From assembly GCA_023260255.1 (NCBI GenBank), contig JALQVV010000015.1:1-36843 (forward strand): a DNA stretch of 36,843 nt, in the 5' to 3' direction. Positions within the stretch are counted from its first letter, which is position 1; the number at the start of each line of letters is the position of its first letter. Below, one piece after another: positions 15,093-26,602 of the stretch. The stretch comes from Candidatus Saccharimonadia bacterium (lineage in GTDB: Bacteria > Patescibacteriota > Saccharimonadia > Saccharimonadales > Saccharimonadaceae). The position numbers and the translations under genes are program-made. The notes below the pieces were generated by a model. It was not told the origin of the DNA and made no database searches. It worked only from the letters and a program-made list of their open reading frames with translations.

Positions 15093-16847
15093 TTACATGA
15101 GTTCGCCGACGCGGGTCCATAGCTCAGCTCTGCGTGAAACGCAAATTATGAGAGCACCGTGCTCTAACCAGCTGCAAGTAGTTGGCAAAGGCACAGCCCG
15201 AACGCGCGAGAAGAATATACCTAAATATACGGGTCCATAGCTCAGCTGGTTAGAGCACCTGCCTTTTAAGCAGGGTGTCGTGGGTTCAAGCCCCACTGGA
15301 CCCTCCATAGACATTATTTCAGACCCTTCGGGGTCTGATTTGTGTTTCAGACCCCCGTAAATTGGACTGATTTTAGGTATATAAACTTTTTTATTAGGAA
15401 GTATTAAAATTCCGTCGGGAAATAGCATTTGTTTACATATTTTGAACAAAACCATGTCCATACCCCAGATTTGCTCATTTATATTCGACAAGAAGCTCAA
15501 AGCATAGTCTATAAAGGCATCATAGTCCTGCTCAAAGTTCTCAGCTTGCCTGGCTTGCTCGTCAGCCTCAGCAATCAACACCTTTATCTTTTCTATTTCA
15601 GGCTTTATGTCTTCACCCAGCTCAGGATTTAAAGAAAGAGTCTCGATAAGCTTCGACTTTTTGGTGTTTAGATTTTCAACATGACCCCGCGCGATTCTTG
15701 CCTTCTCAATAAGGGTTCGTTCATAAGCGCCCCATACTTTCCTACAGTGTCTCTTAAGGTCTTCAATGTCTTGCTGTGTTAGATAGTGAAGCTCTAGCTC
15801 GCTCTTCACCGCCTCATGTAGTTGTTCTTGTCGAAGTCCCAAGTTGCAATCTCGGCAGCGGTACCGACGGTACCGCTTAAAGCCTTTCTTCTCACCATTA
15901 CTCTGCCAATATCCAACCAGTCTAGGATATGGATTTTCTCCCAGAACACACCTCAGACATTCAGCATCATTTGAAAAAGGAAATTCAGGATTATTTCTAA
16001 TAACAATAAACCTCTTGCCTTTATTCTTAACCATATTGACGAGTATTTCATGCTCGGCTTTGGTAATCATTTTTCTATGCAACCCCTCTTCATTGCGAGT
16101 ATCCCAATTTCCGAAAGTTATGACCCCACAATAATATGCGTCACACATCAGTTCTTTCCACCGATACATATCTATAGTCTTGCCGCCCGTGGACTTAGGT
16201 CCATAGTTTTTCGTTGTTAACCCTCGCTCCGTTGCCCGCTTTAATCCTTCACTTATACTACATTCTCCACGCGCCATCTCTTGAAAAGTATCTCGCATAG
16301 CAGACCAATTAGGCTCGTCAGGGATGTGCAGTCCAGGTGTTTCAGATTTCCTATACCCAGTATGCGGATTACTAGGATAGTATCCCGCCATTATGCGCGC
16401 CTTTTGATTAGCTGGGGTCTTTAATATTCTTTCTTCGTTGCTCTGCTGAGCTTTGAATATATCCATTAATTCCTCAAAGACAGCCATTGTGTCGTTGGGA
16501 TTTATCTCTGGACGTTTCGCAAAACGCAGTTCAACACCAATGATTTTGACCTTGGTTTTCCAATAGTAGTATTCGTCGATTGACCTCATAAATCTGTCGA
16601 CTTCATCAATTATGAGCATACTAACCGACTTATGAGCCTTACAAAACCTATACATCTCTACGATGTCTTTACGTTCTACGTTCTTACCTTTTCTACTTGA
16701 TATAGCGACACGCCACCATTGGAGTATTTCTGCATCAAGGAAAGCTGCTGCTTTCTTTATTCGTTCTTCTTGAGGCTCAAGATTACCATCAAGTAATTGC
16801 TTTTTGGTTGAAACCCTACACAATGCGATTGCTTTTACTGTACTCAT
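15093..16847 (-). CDS. Large serine recombinase; C-terminal part of the ORF is probably antisense-tRNA readthrough
   Basis: MSTVKAIALCRVSTKKQ (catalytic Ser region), LIIDEVDRFMRS, recombinase domain, Zn-ribbon CLRC...CRDC, coiled coil. Downstream EGPVGLEPTTPCLKGRCSNQLSYGP is reverse-strand translation of the tRNA gene; authentic protein end probably near 15360-15380. Confidence 0.9.
   Translation of the reverse strand: MSTVKAIALCRVSTKKQLLDGNLEPQEERIKKAAAFLDAEILQWWRVAISSRKGKNVERKDIVEMYRFCKAHKSVSMLIIDEVDRFMRSIDEYYYWKTKVKIIGVELRFAKRPEINPNDTMAVFEELMDIFKAQQSNEERILKTPANQKARIMAGYYPSNPHTGYRKSETPGLHIPDEPNWSAMRDTFQEMARGECSISEGLKRATERGLTTKNYGPKSTGGKTIDMYRWKELMCDAYYCGVITFGNWDTRNEEGLHRKMITKAEHEILVNMVKNKGKRFIVIRNNPEFPFSNDAECLRCVLGENPYPRLVGYWQSNGEKKGFKRYRRYRCRDCNLGLRQEQLHEAVKSELELHYLTQQDIEDLKRHCRKVWGAYERTLIEKARIARGHVENLNTKKSKLIETLSLNPELGEDIKPEIEKIKVLIAEADEQARQAENFEQDYDAFIDYALSFLSNINEQIWGMDMVLFKICKQMLFPDGILILPNKKVYIPKISPIYGGLKHKSDPEGSEIMSMEGPVGLEPTTPCLKGRCSNQLSYGPVYLGIFFSRVRAVPLPTTCSWLEHGALIICVSRRAELWTRVGELM
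15112..15173. other. Rearranged tRNA-Lys-derived fragment
   Basis: CGGGTCCATAGCTCAGCT (15112-15129) repeats exactly at 15230-15247; GTGCTCTAACCAGCT (15159-15173) is the exact reverse complement of 15244-15258 inside the tRNA. Confidence 0.8.
15231..15307 (+). tRNA. tRNA-Lys (anticodon TTT), CCA encoded
   Basis: GGGTCCA TA GCTC AGCTGGTTA GAGC ... CCTGC CTTTTAA GCAGG ... GTGGGTTCAAGCCCCAC TGGACCC T CCA; full cloverleaf can be paired by eye. Confidence 0.96.
15319..15338 (+). terminator. Terminator-like hairpin after tRNA-Lys
   Basis: TCAGACCC TTCG GGGTCTGA followed by TTTGTGTTT. Confidence 0.75.
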
Positions 16848-18336: not shown

Positions 18337-18366
18337 TTGGGGTTATCTGGGATAATCCTATATAAT
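18337..18366 (+). promoter_or_regulatory. Predicted sigma70-like promoter for the ncRNA candidate
   Basis: TTGGGG (18337-18342), 18-nt spacer, TATAAT (18361-18366). Confidence 0.55.
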
Positions 18367-18370
18367 GCTG

Positions 18371-18533
18371 ACAAGTGGCATTGCCACTCGACCTAGAGCC
18401 GCCGCAAGGACAGGTATGGTCAACGAAATCTACAACGAAGAAATGCTCGTCATAGGGTGCTATTCGTTGTAGTTGCAGTTGGAAACGACTGTAGGGGCGA
18501 AAGCTCCGCTCTGTGGCGAGCTTTTTGTTTGCC
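18371..18533 (+). ncRNA. Candidate structured ncRNA / leader with intrinsic terminator
   Basis: Successive stems: AGTGGC-ATT-GCCACT (18374-18388); CTACAACGAA (18430-18439) / TTCGTTGTAG (18463-18472); CAGTTG-GAAA-CGACTG; GGGGC-GAAA-GCTCC; terminator AAAGCTC..GAGCTTTTTGTTT. No long ORF on the + strand here. Confidence 0.6.
18499..18530 (+). terminator. Intrinsic terminator of the ncRNA/leader
   Basis: AAAGCTCcGCTCTGTGGCGAGCTTTTTGTTT: A/T-extended GC stem followed by U-tract. Confidence 0.65.
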
Positions 18534-18559
18534 GTCAAAACTTTAATTAGGAGAATGTC

Positions 18560-18952
18560 GTGCAGCAGGAAAAACAGTATAGGCAAAGTAAGAACGCTAT
18601 TTTAATCAACTATATAATCTACCGATGGATTATAGCTGCGTTCACCTGTGGCATATTAGCCTTACATGATTGGCTCAACTTTAGAAATACTAAGTTAACA
18701 TTTGAAAAGAACTTCATTGTTTACGTTACAGGTGGCTTCACAACACGCAGCCAAGAAATTCCCTATGAAGATATTATGAGCGTGAATGTAGACCAGTCTA
18801 TTATCGGGCAATGGTTCAATTACGGAACTTTGAATATTGTTATGAAAGAGTCGCGCGACCTTGTTGCATTCAAATTCATCCACGACCCTGAAACAGTTAG
18901 GAAGTCAGTACAAGAGACTTACGTCCGCTCGATGAAGATGAAAATGAGCTAG
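18560..18952 (+). CDS. Membrane protein with bacterial PH (YdbS/YdbT-like) domain
   Basis: GTG start after AGGAG; TM segment then LTFEKNFIVYVTGGFTTRSQEIPYEDIMSVNVDQSIIGQWFNYGTLNIVMKES typical of bPH domains. Confidence 0.75.
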   Translation: MQQEKQYRQSKNAILINYIIYRWIIAAFTCGILALHDWLNFRNTKLTFEKNFIVYVTGGFTTRSQEIPYEDIMSVNVDQSIIGQWFNYGTLNIVMKESRDLVAFKFIHDPETVRKSVQETYVRSMKMKMS

Positions 18953-20140: not shown

Positions 20141-20953
20141 CTATTTGCCATTTTTCCAGTAGTTTCTCACACTCTCTGATTTAAGGTCAGCCATTATGAA
20201 CTTACCTGGTCTAACAATATAGAACTCAACCAAACTTCGTAAGATTATATAAACCATAATAAAAACTATATTAAGGAGAGCAACGATAATAATATTATGA
20301 ATATCAGATTCATATAACTTCCCATTACCACCACCTGACGTAATAATAAGTCCATATATTGAAAAGAGAATCGCGAAAATACCCGTTTGAGTAATGTACT
20401 TGTCAATTGCAAAATAATAGCTCAACTGCCCACGCTCAAATAAAGCAAGTCTCTTTCTCGTTAGGTAGTCGTGGCTTGTGACGAATAGTGAAAAAACGGC
20501 TATGAATATAGAAACCGCTGTTAGTAACCCGCTAAATACCTCATTAATAGAGTTACTGTCTGCATACATGTAGCCAAGAACATTGAGAATAACTAAAGGC
20601 AATAAAATCTTTCCAAATCTCATTACCCTGGACACTATGGCACTTCCCTGAAATAGCTCGTCAATTACAAACTTAAAATAATTTCCGTCTTTTTTAGATA
20701 CATTAACGACTTCGATGTGCGCTTTATCAACAAAGCTAAAATCAGCTTCTTTTCTGTAGTTTTCGACAGCAAATTCAACACCAGATAGTTCTTTGAATAA
20801 AACAAAACACATATCGTGCATAAGCAACACACGACATGATTTATCATCGAGAAACTTATAGATAGTTTTTACTTCTTCAAGTTCTACTTTGAGTAGACCA
20901 CCCTTTGTAGCCTTAAGTGTTTCGATAAAACCTTTATCAATTACTACTTTCAT
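20141..20953 (-). CDS. Putative membrane effector: ~105-aa soluble N-term plus four predicted TM helices
   Basis: Hydrophobic segments ILLPLVILNVLGYMYA, VFSGLLTAVSIFIAVFSLFVTS, GIFAILFSIYGLIITSG, IIIVALLNIVFIMVYIILRSLV; overlaps the upstream ORF by 17 nt. Confidence 0.7.
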   Translation of the reverse strand: MKVVIDKGFIETLKATKGGLLKVELEEVKTIYKFLDDKSCRVLLMHDMCFVLFKELSGVEFAVENYRKEADFSFVDKAHIEVVNVSKKDGNYFKFVIDELFQGSAIVSRVMRFGKILLPLVILNVLGYMYADSNSINEVFSGLLTAVSIFIAVFSLFVTSHDYLTRKRLALFERGQLSYYFAIDKYITQTGIFAILFSIYGLIITSGGGNGKLYESDIHNIIIVALLNIVFIMVYIILRSLVEFYIVRPGKFIMADLKSESVRNYWKNGK

Positions 20954-21875
20954 TATTGAACATGTCTATCTGCTCATTATTTGAGCGTCTTACTGTTCTA
21001 AGTGTATCAGCTCCTTGAAGCTTTTCGAGTATTGAGCCTATCTGGTTCTCTAAATCATAATCGCCTGAATCTATGGTAATTACCTCTTTTTTCTTTGTCA
21101 GACCATATTCCGTACGAACCACGGAGTCTTTCTTATATACAATCTTTATCGGTTTTCTAGACCCCTCTAACATCGCTCGAACAATTGGGTCTTTCTTGAA
21201 ACTCTCACCTTGCTTTGCTTTCACTGAAACTTTTTCGGTATTATTTCCGAATCTAAGAGCAGCTTCTTCCATGGCTGGTTGGTACGCATCAATTGGATTA
21301 AAATAAGTCTGATATTTATCACCTCTCAGCCTCTTTTCCTCCAAGACAAGATTCCTGTCAAAATCCTCAAGTTCAAGCTCAGATACAGAATCCGCTTCGG
21401 TATAGAAAATCTCCAAAATACGTCCTCTATCCACTTCATCTTGTGTGTAATCAAATGTGGATACAAGAAACTTTCCGTCAGAGGAAGATGCGATTAATTT
21501 CCATAAACCCACAAACTTCTTTATAATCTGCGTCGTTCCTGGTAGGTCAGCGGAGCGTTTCGCTTGAAGGTAAAGTTCGTACTTTCTCGGATAAAATACA
21601 AAAAGATATTCACCTGTATCTCTAATCTTTTGACTCTCTTCAAGCTTTGTTTCAGTATAATCAGTGACTACTTTCGGGTATTTTTGGACGAAAAGACCAT
21701 AAATCGCGTCATTGGTATGCCCACAATGAGCAAATCCATATTTTCGGTCTTCATCTTCTCCTTCAAAAGGCTGTTTGGAGAGTAAATCGGTGAATTTTTC
21801 AATATCCCCTAATTCGACTTTATCAGCTCCCCAATAAGGGTCACGTGCTTTAAGTCGATTAAGAGTAATATCCAT
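20937..21875 (-). CDS. Hypothetical protein in apparent operon with reverse transcriptase
   Basis: 312-aa ORF, 58 nt downstream of the RT stop, same strand; no motif recognised. Confidence 0.7.
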   Translation of the reverse strand: MDITLNRLKARDPYWGADKVELGDIEKFTDLLSKQPFEGEDEDRKYGFAHCGHTNDAIYGLFVQKYPKVVTDYTETKLEESQKIRDTGEYLFVFYPRKYELYLQAKRSADLPGTTQIIKKFVGLWKLIASSSDGKFLVSTFDYTQDEVDRGRILEIFYTEADSVSELELEDFDRNLVLEEKRLRGDKYQTYFNPIDAYQPAMEEAALRFGNNTEKVSVKAKQGESFKKDPIVRAMLEGSRKPIKIVYKKDSVVRTEYGLTKKKEVITIDSGDYDLENQIGSILEKLQGADTLRTVRRSNNEQIDMFNNESSN

Positions 21876-21933: not shown

Positions 21934-23493
21934 TCATGCTGCCAAGGTTCTCTTTGCATAATTTGCAGCACTAACTAAATGAGGCTCAGATACCACAGTA
22001 TCCCTCAAAAATGAATCGCGCGTCCTGACCTCTAGCCTGTTAAGGGAGCAGAGTACTGCTTCCTTTTCTTGTGCAGACGAGGCTTGCGTAAAGCTATCCC
22101 TAATTCTCGTCAAATCATGGTGCTCACCAAGCACTCCTAAAACCTGCTTAGCTATCGCCCGATAATACGCAGGCTTATTGTTATCAAATGCCACTGAGCG
22201 CATAAAGTCCAGAAAATCAGTGGATTGATAACTCTCATTAAAGAGCCACTGCGATATTAGATAATTCTGGTAGTCATAAACAGCATTGGTTGAATTCATA
22301 AACACAACCAACTGTGAATATACAATGCTACGCGATGACACCTTTCCAAAATATTTTAATATATACGAGGTTTCTTGCGGATGCTTTTCAAGTAAATCAA
22401 GACAGTAGCTTATTGCTAGTTCATCACCCGCATTCCCTAATTTATTGAGTAGGTAGTGGAAAAGTGTTTTATCAAACTCATTATTGTTGCCTGACAGAAA
22501 ATAGTCGTTAAAAGCTTGCTTGATAACATCGAGCTGCTCTGCATTAGGGCGTCCCGTATTTACTTGGATTTCAACAGCATAAGGATAACCTTCAACTTCA
22601 ACAAAATCAACCTCGCTTCTCAACTTTTCATGCAAGATATCTATGACTGTCGCTTTGCCAACTATCTCTAGCTTCGCCTCCTCAACTTGGAGTATCTTTG
22701 ATTTTGCCGATTGAAGATTAAGACCTCTTTTACGTAGAATATCCGTGAGTGCCATGAGTGCCTTTTTTGCCTCCGATACTGAGTTACAAAAAACTCTAAT
22801 ATCATCTACGAACCTAATCTGTTCATAGCCAAGATTTCGCATTTCAATGTCGACTCCACTCATATAAAGTTTCGCGAGTAGGTGCGATGCGCTGACACCT
22901 TGCGGAAGTCCTTTTGTGCCAACTTGGCTCCATTTTTTTAACAGTTTCCTGATTTCAGTTACCTTATCGGATGGGACTCCAATGCGTCTCAAATCAGCAA
23001 GGAGAAGATTATGGTCAATATTCTCGTAGCACCCTGTTACATCTGTGATGACTACAAACTGAAAACCCTGGTTTAGCTTATCAAGACTTCTGTCTTTAAA
23101 CTCATCCCAGCAAACAAACTGATGTTTATACCACTTATCACTACTAGCATTTGGTTGTAGTTGGTAAGCAAAATCGGATACTCCCTGCAATGGTAAGAGT
23201 TCTGTGCGGAACTTTTCATATTCACTATCAAGAAGTAATGTGTATGCGATTTGGTCGTCAATTGTTAAAATCGCGCCTGGTCGAACCGCACCCTTACCTT
23301 TTGGAACGTCAGCAATGACACATGGCTGAGGGACATATCTGCTTTCTTCAAGGTCACTCTTTATTTTTTCTAACCTTGCCTCTCGTTCACTCTCGAAAAG
23401 TTCGACTTCATAAGGATAGCGAACAAAGTTCAAGCCATTCTTTATGTCTTCTTTGACTATATCGTGAGAACGACGCGGGTTTGTAATTGTCAT
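21934..23493 (-). CDS. Reverse transcriptase of the UG/Abi (defence-associated) type with helical C-terminal extension
   Basis: Motif A FVVITDVTGCYENIDHNLLL, motif B GTKGLPQGVSASHLLAKLYMSGVDIEM, motif C YEQIRFVDDIRVFCNSVSEAKKAL; ~200-aa Leu/Ala-rich helical C-term; no intron maturase/HNH domain seen. Confidence 0.85.
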   Translation of the reverse strand: MTITNPRRSHDIVKEDIKNGLNFVRYPYEVELFESEREARLEKIKSDLEESRYVPQPCVIADVPKGKGAVRPGAILTIDDQIAYTLLLDSEYEKFRTELLPLQGVSDFAYQLQPNASSDKWYKHQFVCWDEFKDRSLDKLNQGFQFVVITDVTGCYENIDHNLLLADLRRIGVPSDKVTEIRKLLKKWSQVGTKGLPQGVSASHLLAKLYMSGVDIEMRNLGYEQIRFVDDIRVFCNSVSEAKKALMALTDILRKRGLNLQSAKSKILQVEEAKLEIVGKATVIDILHEKLRSEVDFVEVEGYPYAVEIQVNTGRPNAEQLDVIKQAFNDYFLSGNNNEFDKTLFHYLLNKLGNAGDELAISYCLDLLEKHPQETSYILKYFGKVSSRSIVYSQLVVFMNSTNAVYDYQNYLISQWLFNESYQSTDFLDFMRSVAFDNNKPAYYRAIAKQVLGVLGEHHDLTRIRDSFTQASSAQEKEAVLCSLNRLEVRTRDSFLRDTVVSEPHLVSAANYAKRTLAA

Positions 23494-23520: not shown

Positions 23521-23668
23521 GTGTAACTACTGCTGGGTATTAATATAAATTACTTTGTCGTCCCCGTATCTTATGCTGCTGGAATCGGTTGTCTAGTAGT
23601 CCTCTCCATCTCATCAGTTCCTCAACGATAATATAAACTACTTCCCTGGTCGACCTCCATGAAATCAT
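23521..23668 (-). repeat. Intergenic micro-ORF repeat, copy 1 (intact)
   Basis: Aligns end to end with 24419-24566; contains the intact 42-aa ORF. Confidence 0.85.
23540..23668 (-). CDS. 42-aa micro-ORF MISWRSTREVVYIIVEELMRWRGLLDNRFQQHKIRGRQSNLY
   Basis: Too short for the ORF track; its C-terminal block recurs in copies 2 and 3 with many synonymous changes. Confidence 0.5.
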   Translation of the reverse strand: MISWRSTREVVYIIVEELMRWRGLLDNRFQQHKIRGRQSNLY

Positions 23669-23726: not shown

Positions 23727-24419
23727 ATGAGTATTAGTTTTATAAGTCTGAATCTATGCGGCGGCACTGACTGGAAGTCGAGGCTCCCTAATATTGTCGA
23801 TTTCCTCAACACCCACCACGCTGATATTGTCTTACTTCAAGAAGTTCGGCTCAATGAATCGACTTCGCTCAACCAAGCATCCGAAATCAATCGACTACTA
23901 GCTGACAGCTTTCCTTATATTAATTCGGCTATTTCTCGCTTCTATCGTCCTAGCGTTGGCGAACCTTATCGTGAAGGACTTACAATACTAAGTCGACATC
24001 CAATGGCAAATAGTGAAGTCGTTATTCTTAATCAAGCTTTAGACGATAGGCACAGCCGCATCATCCAACTAGCGGACATAGTATTTGAGAATAATCCTGT
24101 TACAGTCTGCAATGTTCATTTTTCAAACAACGTACATTCAGTCGAACAACTGTCTGAGACACTTTCAATCATCGAAAACCGTAGCAAAAATACCGTTATA
24201 GCTGGCGACTTTAATATATTCAGTTTGAGTGATAATAAATCTCTCTACGACTCTCGCTATACATCCTCGACAGAAGTTGGTGAATACATATCATTTCCAA
24301 CCGAATCAAAGACGCTCGACTATGTACTTGTTCCAAAACCTATGAACTTTAGCTCATTTGAAACCGTTCCTGGCTTATCTGACCATTCCGCACTTCTTTT
24401 TACTGTCGATACTAAATAG
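23727..24419 (+). CDS. Endonuclease/exonuclease/phosphatase (EEP) family protein
   Basis: ISLNLCGG, DIVLLQEVRL, VTVCNVHFSNN, VIAGDFNIFS, TLDYVLVPKP, LSDHSALLF motif series. Confidence 0.9.
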   Translation: MSISFISLNLCGGTDWKSRLPNIVDFLNTHHADIVLLQEVRLNESTSLNQASEINRLLADSFPYINSAISRFYRPSVGEPYREGLTILSRHPMANSEVVILNQALDDRHSRIIQLADIVFENNPVTVCNVHFSNNVHSVEQLSETLSIIENRSKNTVIAGDFNIFSLSDNKSLYDSRYTSSTEVGEYISFPTESKTLDYVLVPKPMNFSSFETVPGLSDHSALLFTVDTK

Positions 24420-24566
24420 TGACTACTAATGAGTATTAAAGCAGATTGTTTTGTCGTTTCCGTATCTTATATTGTTCAAAACGGCTATCAAGAAGTTCCC
24501 TCCATCGCATCAGTTCCTCGACGATAATATATAAACTACTTCCCTGATCGACCTCCAAGAAATCAT
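24419..24566 (-). repeat. Intergenic micro-ORF repeat, copy 2 (frameshifted by a 2-nt TA insertion)
   Basis: Encodes MISWRSIREVVYI | IIVEELMRWRELLDSRFEQYKIRKRQNNLL across the shift. Confidence 0.85.
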
Positions 24567-25935: not shown

Positions 25936-25944
25936 CCCAGCCAT

Positions 25945-26061
25945 GTCGCTACTACCGGGTATTAATGTAAATTATTTCTTTGTTTCTTTATCTTATGCTG
26001 TTGGAATCTATTATCGAGGAGGTATTTCATTCCATCAGTTCATCAACAAAAGTATATAATC
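25945..26061 (-). repeat. Intergenic micro-ORF repeat, copy 3 (truncated, 1-nt deletion)
   Basis: Encodes YTFVDELM | (fs) LLDNRFQQHKIKKQRNNLH; shares TAATACCC-GTAGTAG tail. Confidence 0.75.
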
Positions 26062-26484: not shown

Positions 26485-26602
26485 GCTGTCGCATTGATTT
26501 TTGTGTCTTCTCCTTGAGTAGGAATAATAATCAAGAAATTCTCCATCTCATCAATTCGTCGACAATAAAGAGTATATAAACTCCTTTCCCTATTAAATCC
26601 AG
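26484..26602 (-). repeat. Intergenic micro-ORF repeat, copy 4 (degenerate)
   Basis: Retains VYILFIVDELMRWR and the CTCCATCTCATCA core; the 3' half is poorly conserved. Confidence 0.6.

Follow-up and report, generated by a model that had tools for sequence, protein, structure and literature searches.

The stretch of DNA analysed here (hereafter the window), 36,843 nt from a contig of Candidatus Saccharimonadia bacterium, contains an island in which a large serine recombinase gene on the minus strand lies to the left of a structured RNA element and two adjoining genes on the plus strand, the first of which encodes a bacterial PH-domain (bPH_2) protein with an N-terminal hydrophobic segment (Table 1). 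The RNA element is a member of the known family LOOT: its cmscan match to Rfam RF03000 scores 51.4 bits against a gathering cut-off of 46.4, and in a scan with all Rfam families it was the sole match in the window besides one tRNA. The copy in the window shares with the family the elements P1-P4, the conserved CCUA..AUGG and the GAAA loop. Its predicted fold has a free energy of -77.7 kcal/mol, compared with -57.3 +/- 4.2 kcal/mol in 200 shuffled sequences (z -4.9). Both the folding and the Infernal/Rfam comparison bear out the initial annotation of this region as a structured RNA, and all of the parts that it named (promoter, 5′ hairpin, 10-bp stem, two GAAA-capped stems, terminator arms and Shine-Dalgarno sequence) are present.

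Table 1. Coordinates of the recombinase gene, the RNA leader and the genes behind it (window positions).
Feature	Positions	Strand	Sequence, basis or remark
Island large serine recombinase	15093..16847	-	Resolvase PF00239, 45.8 bits; PHROG integrase
Predicted promoter	18337..18366	+	TTGGGG 18337-18342, 18-nt spacer, TATAAT 18361-18366
Small 5′ hairpin	18374..18388	+	AGTGG-cattg-CCACT; at presumed RNA 5′ end; sequence
LOOT RNA core	18390..18507	+	Rfam RF03000, model positions 1-121 of 121 (full model)
P1, GAAA-tetraloop-receptor-like	18392..18419	+	Strands CCTAGA 18392-18397, TATGG 18415-18419
P2 5′ arm	18430..18439	+	CUACAACGAA; sequence comparison
Pseudoknot 5′ strand	18445..18459	+	GCUCGUCAUAGGGUG; P2 apical loop; covariation
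P2 3′ arm	18463..18472	+	UUCGUUGUAG; complementary to start region in many homologues, not in the window copy
P3 hairpin	18474..18493	+	Conserved GAAA loop 18482-18485
P4 hairpin	18494..18507	+	GGGGC-GAAA-GCTCC; loop varies within family
Pseudoknot 3′ strand	18507..18521	+	CGCUCUGUGGCGAGC; outside Rfam model; covariation
U tract after pseudoknot 3′ strand	18522..18526	+	Possible conditional terminator; sequence
SD-like AGGAG	18549..18553	+	Sequence; GTG start at 18560
First gene, bPH_2 protein, 130 aa	18560..18952	+	Pfam PF03703, 53.6 bits
Second gene, 395 aa	18953..20140	+	Adjoins bPH_2 gene; weak zinc-ribbon match below Pfam cut-off

LOOT is an orphan family without a stated function, and its Rfam type is ‘Gene; sRNA’. 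The family was derived from ZWD alignments (PMC7779021), only two covarying pairs were added for it in Rfam 15 (PMC11701678), and CaCoFold flagged unusual cross-covariation in it (PMC7657543). In these three papers, which do not include the original description of 2017, LOOT serves as an example family or receives remarks on covariation, and no function is given.

For comparison we collected 91 further LOOT loci with their flanks (92 with the window), together with a replication set of 57 more, so that about 150 copies were compared overall; genes, start codons and P2 arms were called mechanically by simple scripts. The distribution of LOOT is patchy, both among near relatives (22 of 101 genomes) and across the phylum (84 of 384 genomes), with up to seven copies per genome and a single copy in the genome of the window (1.02 Mb, 98% complete). 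In a pattern search of named genomes, the hosts belong almost only to Patescibacteria groups, including Nomurabacteria, Taylorbacteria, Moranbacteria, Woesebacteria, WWE3 and others, and the few other names presumably stand for short contigs that are probably misbinned, or for chance matches of the pattern. On viral contigs a first pattern gave 77 matches, of which about seven resemble genuine LOOT by eye, the others being different motifs. Two contigs classed as viral (L215 and L143), which are possibly phages or mobile elements of Patescibacteria, have LOOT copies carrying the start-site decoy described below.

Transcription of the window copy would begin just 3′ of the TATAAT box, at about 18371-18373. 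The promoter proposed in the initial annotation has a perfect -10 box but a weak -35 box (3/6), and a scan of the window for consensus promoters and terminators listed neither this promoter nor a terminator on the plus strand. Upstream of LOOT in general, a -10 box matching at least five of six positions is found at 76% of 91 loci, as against 40% in shuffled sequences, and a perfect one at 33% as against 6%. Several LOOTs of the same order have 5′ hairpins like that of the window. At many loci (e.g., L087, L092 and L095), a conserved stretch resembling ACAAUUUAAU lies directly upstream of LOOT; it is probably the 5′ end of the RNA, and the UUGU within the U-rich stretch on the 3′ side is a possible pairing partner for it.

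The pseudoknot and a probable receptor in P1

P2 of the window is a perfect 10-bp stem (CTACAACGAA/TTCGTTGTAG), the apical loop of which is complementary to the sequence directly 3′ of P4; the Rfam model stops just before this second strand. Pseudoknot helices formed within a locus scored 25.96, compared with 15.29 +/- 0.40 between mismatched loci (z +26), and the pairing was repeated in the replication set of 57 (z -18). Loci related by descent, some of which have arms in common, do not count as independent, and these permutation z-scores, like those given below, carry no correction for phylogeny. In a sequence-only alignment of 38 LOOT copies (alignment A2), 91.2% of the cells of the 15-bp pseudoknot are paired, 72 cells are compensatory, and seven of the 15 pairs are changed on both sides, whereas pairing falls to 35-55% when the partner is shifted by one to three columns. 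The window has all 15 pairs. Read on the plus strand, the helix contains frequent U-G pairs, which suggests that it functions in RNA of the same strand as the gene.

Could the 3′ part of the element instead stop transcription? The initial annotation had placed an intrinsic terminator here, with a stem that might exclude P4, and its arms do exist in the window, as AAAGCTC (18500-18506) and GAGCTTT (18518-18524) followed by a T tract. Nevertheless, GAGCTTT is part of the pseudoknot 3′ strand and the U tract, and the conserved pairing in the window is the 15-bp pseudoknot and not the terminator hairpin. In an attenuator, transcription would end at the U tract behind either the helix of the pseudoknot or the hairpin AAAGCUC/GAGCUUU as long as the leader took up no other fold, and LOOT would control read-through rather than translation. 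This reading agrees with the position of the U tract directly behind the helix, with the stability of the window hairpin (-9.9 kcal/mol), with the unusually good pairing of the window P4 arm with the 3′ extension (rank 0.01) and with the five-T run present in 18 of the 26 loci of the order to which the window belongs (28 of 66 elsewhere). However, the exclusivity of P4 and terminator is strong in the window only: over the 92 loci, own pairs give -6.80 kcal/mol and permuted pairs -6.76 kcal/mol, a conserved terminator/antiterminator pair was not found, and in about half of the copies from other orders the tract is interrupted (e.g., UUUGUGUUU) or the sequence is a different one. An attenuator also leaves the start-codon copies described below unexplained, and we regard it as rather unlikely. 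The covariation among homologues thus upholds a conserved structure, but not the particular switch that had been proposed for it.

P1 may take part in a tertiary contact. Its strands have the family consensus CCUAA(A/C/G) and (C/U)AUGG, which resembles the 11-nt GAAA-tetraloop receptor CCUAAG/UAUGG, of which a UACGG variant was measured in the same study (PMC11381326); with CCUAGA, the window has a variant receptor. At least 84 of the 92 copies have GAAA as their P3 loop, whereas the P4 loop varies (GAAA in 29, GCAA in 24, UUCG in 12 and GUAA in 11), so that of the two GAAA loops pointed out in the initial annotation, only that of P3 is a conserved one. The conserved P3 loop and the receptor-like P1 make it likely that the former docks in the latter. 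On several viral contigs (L168, L193, L182, L153, L146 and others), a phage leader carries a CCUAAACC..GGCAUGGU motif that probably represents this tetraloop receptor as well; the leader precedes a conserved gene, has a different hairpin and looks unrelated to LOOT.

Position of LOOT ahead of island genes

The downstream neighbour shares the strand of LOOT in 87 of 92 loci, and the upstream neighbour lies on the opposite strand in 63 of 90. With start codons re-picked at least 25 nt past LOOT and nearer ones excluded, the start mostly lies 34-78 nt past the element (52 nt in the window). The 87 LOOT-led genes represent 71 families, which include DNA methyltransferases, nucleases, surface lipoproteins and many DUFs (Pfam, PADLOC). 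An N-terminal transmembrane or signal segment, scored as a hydrophobic stretch among residues 1-60, is found in 57 of the 87 (66%), compared with 311 of 1490 other local genes (21%; p = 6e-18), a control set that has some spurious ORFs. The short distance to a gene on the same strand, together with the diversity of these genes and their N-terminal membrane or signal segments, indicates that LOOT, the window copy included, is a cis-acting 5′ leader of mobile-island genes. Among the options of the initial annotation, a riboswitch or attenuator accordingly fits best as regards position.

A serine recombinase lies within 10 kb of 28 of 51 LOOTs in 20 genomes, where about 3.6 would be expected. This association would suit a DNA-level element, such as a recombination or attachment site of the recombinase, but one strand shows U-G pairs as well as compensatory changes, which speaks for RNA, and the orientation of LOOT is fixed to the start of a gene and not to the end of an element; such a site is highly improbable. 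We hold it to be just as improbable that LOOT is the template or effector RNA of the UG21-type reverse transcriptase (RT) encoded 3.4 kb away in the window (21934-23493, minus strand; PADLOC RT_UG21, 435 bits), which lies on the opposite strand and in a different operon; LOOT is widespread without this RT, and the flanks taken at the other 91 loci hold no convincing relative of it (best E 1e-4, 17 bits) and thus no conserved LOOT/RT neighbourhood.

Put RNA and EAR are leader RNAs of mobile-element operons, located directly after the promoter of accessory operons. LOOT is like them in arrangement: it comes directly after a promoter and precedes cargo operons of mobile islands that are unrelated to each other. 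As a processive antiterminator of this type, its folded RNA would modify RNA polymerase and so allow read-through of the island operons. Such a mechanism gives no reason for the start-codon copies, in which LOOT differs from put and EAR, and no conserved link of LOOT with transcription factors was found; we think it improbable.

Copies of the P2 arm at start codons

In many copies the 5′ arm of P2 recurs, in the same sense, just 5′ of the start codon of the LOOT-led gene. Identical runs of 9 nt or more were seen at 18 of the 92 loci, compared with 0.4 expected from mismatched pairs, and at 22 of the 57 loci of the replication set, compared with 1.9 expected; between roughly one in four and one in three LOOT loci have such a start-codon decoy. 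The P2 3′ arm correspondingly favours the start region of its own locus over those of others (z -13.6, and z -5.1 without the 18 strongest loci), a result replicated in the 57 further LOOTs (z -11.4), whereas control segments (the 5′ arm, P1 and P3/P4) gave z between -1.1 and +1.4 against the start region. Several genes with strong decoys (at L087, L104, L114 and L085) encode long or soluble proteins. The effect is weak across the order of the window (z about -2), and the window copy shows no alternative pairing of this kind at its translation start: the start region there is matched no better by the P2 3′ arm of the window than by the arms of other loci (rank 0.61, 0.68), and exact, duplex and gapped comparisons for a start-site copy in the window were all not significant.

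In genome G445, which has seven LOOTs, each of three start-site boxes tested, taken with the following ATG, occurs only beside its own LOOT, which argues for cis action and copy-specific pairing. We consider it improbable that LOOT is a trans-acting sRNA merely situated upstream of cargo genes. Its Rfam type implies such a role, and its own promoter and a possible terminator, which the U tract could form to release a separate RNA, would be in keeping with it; the same-strand genes in 87 of 92 loci at a near-fixed distance and the start-site boxes that differ from copy to copy would not. The occurrence of LOOT in leaders and the G445 boxes likewise leave the standalone or copy-number RNA suggested in the initial annotation unsupported.

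How might the leader act? In the mechanism that we propose, the transcript would fold into P1 (the tetraloop receptor), P2, P3 and P4, the GAAA loop of P3 presumably being bound by P1. The fold would be closed by the long pseudoknot, supported by covariation, in which the P2 loop pairs with the nucleotides immediately 3′ of P4. The P2 3′ arm would be the switching strand. As long as the P2 5′ arm holds it, the start region would be free; in many relatives its alternative partner would be the start-codon region, where the sequence of the P2 5′ arm is present a second time, and translation would then be blocked, the complementarity being observed and its effect on translation presumed. The pseudoknot could persist in both states of this strand swap, and a factor that stabilises the core (a ligand, a protein or the order of folding) would set the level of expression. 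In the window, which has no start-site copy, the output step may differ, for example through termination at the U tract, or the effect may be weak.

On this basis we consider it fairly probable that the bPH_2 gene and the next gene form a cargo operon of a mobile island with the LOOT of the window as its structured, cis-acting 5′ leader, in a family in which the P2 3′ arm would be the switching strand. More tentatively, we suggest that LOOT could be a new class of cis-acting translational switch on cargo genes of mobile islands in Patescibacteria, with a docked pseudoknot core and a central strand that swaps between an internal decoy and a start-codon copy, the gene-specific decoys preventing cross-talk among the copies of one genome. 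LOOT shares the 5′ leader position, the compact pseudoknotted core and a probable tertiary contact with translational riboswitches of the anti-SD/anti-anti-SD kind and with H-type pseudoknot riboswitches (SAM-II), and many copies also share with translational riboswitches the exclusive pairing with the start region. Unlike in translational riboswitches, however, it is the P2 arm itself that mimics the start site, with a sequence that varies from copy to copy, and because the LOOT-led genes are common to no pathway, they suggest no ligand. As far as we checked, three findings are new: the role of LOOT as a leader, the extension of its pseudoknot past the Rfam model and the decoy of the start codon. 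The P1 receptor with the P3 GAAA loop appears to be a fourth new result at the level of the family; the original description of 2017 may already note some of these.

The leader role, the covarying pseudoknot and the decoy in many copies give an orphan RNA a testable function, and suggest a switch that would turn mobile-island genes on or off in the tiny Patescibacteria. LOOT would then be a widespread form of expression control over surface, secreted and DNA-modification genes that hard-to-culture bacteria have gained by horizontal transfer, and the presence of DNA methyltransferases behind it would fit control of modification genes upon entry into a new host. With a decoy matched to each gene, LOOT would moreover offer a natural supply of RNA switches that are orthogonal to one another.

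Other features of the island

The UG21-class RT of the window is, by its PADLOC match, a candidate anti-phage RT, and two unassigned genes on the same strand lie downstream of it (20141-21875). A diverged intergenic repeat of up to about 150 nt occurs at 23522-23635, 24418-24531, 25944-26052 and 26540-26568, its copies being 70-93% alike; the repeat, which had no Rfam match at the gathering threshold, precedes plus-strand genes encoding exo/endonuclease-phosphatase proteins (23727 and 24605), a NUDIX protein (26068) and a beta-lactamase-like protein (26708). At the other side of LOOT, 18 bp from the 5′ end of tRNA-Lys (15231-15307, plus strand) are repeated exactly, at 15112-15129 and 15230-15247. 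The serine recombinase ORF spans the tRNA-Lys gene, and this arrangement suggests integration at that gene.
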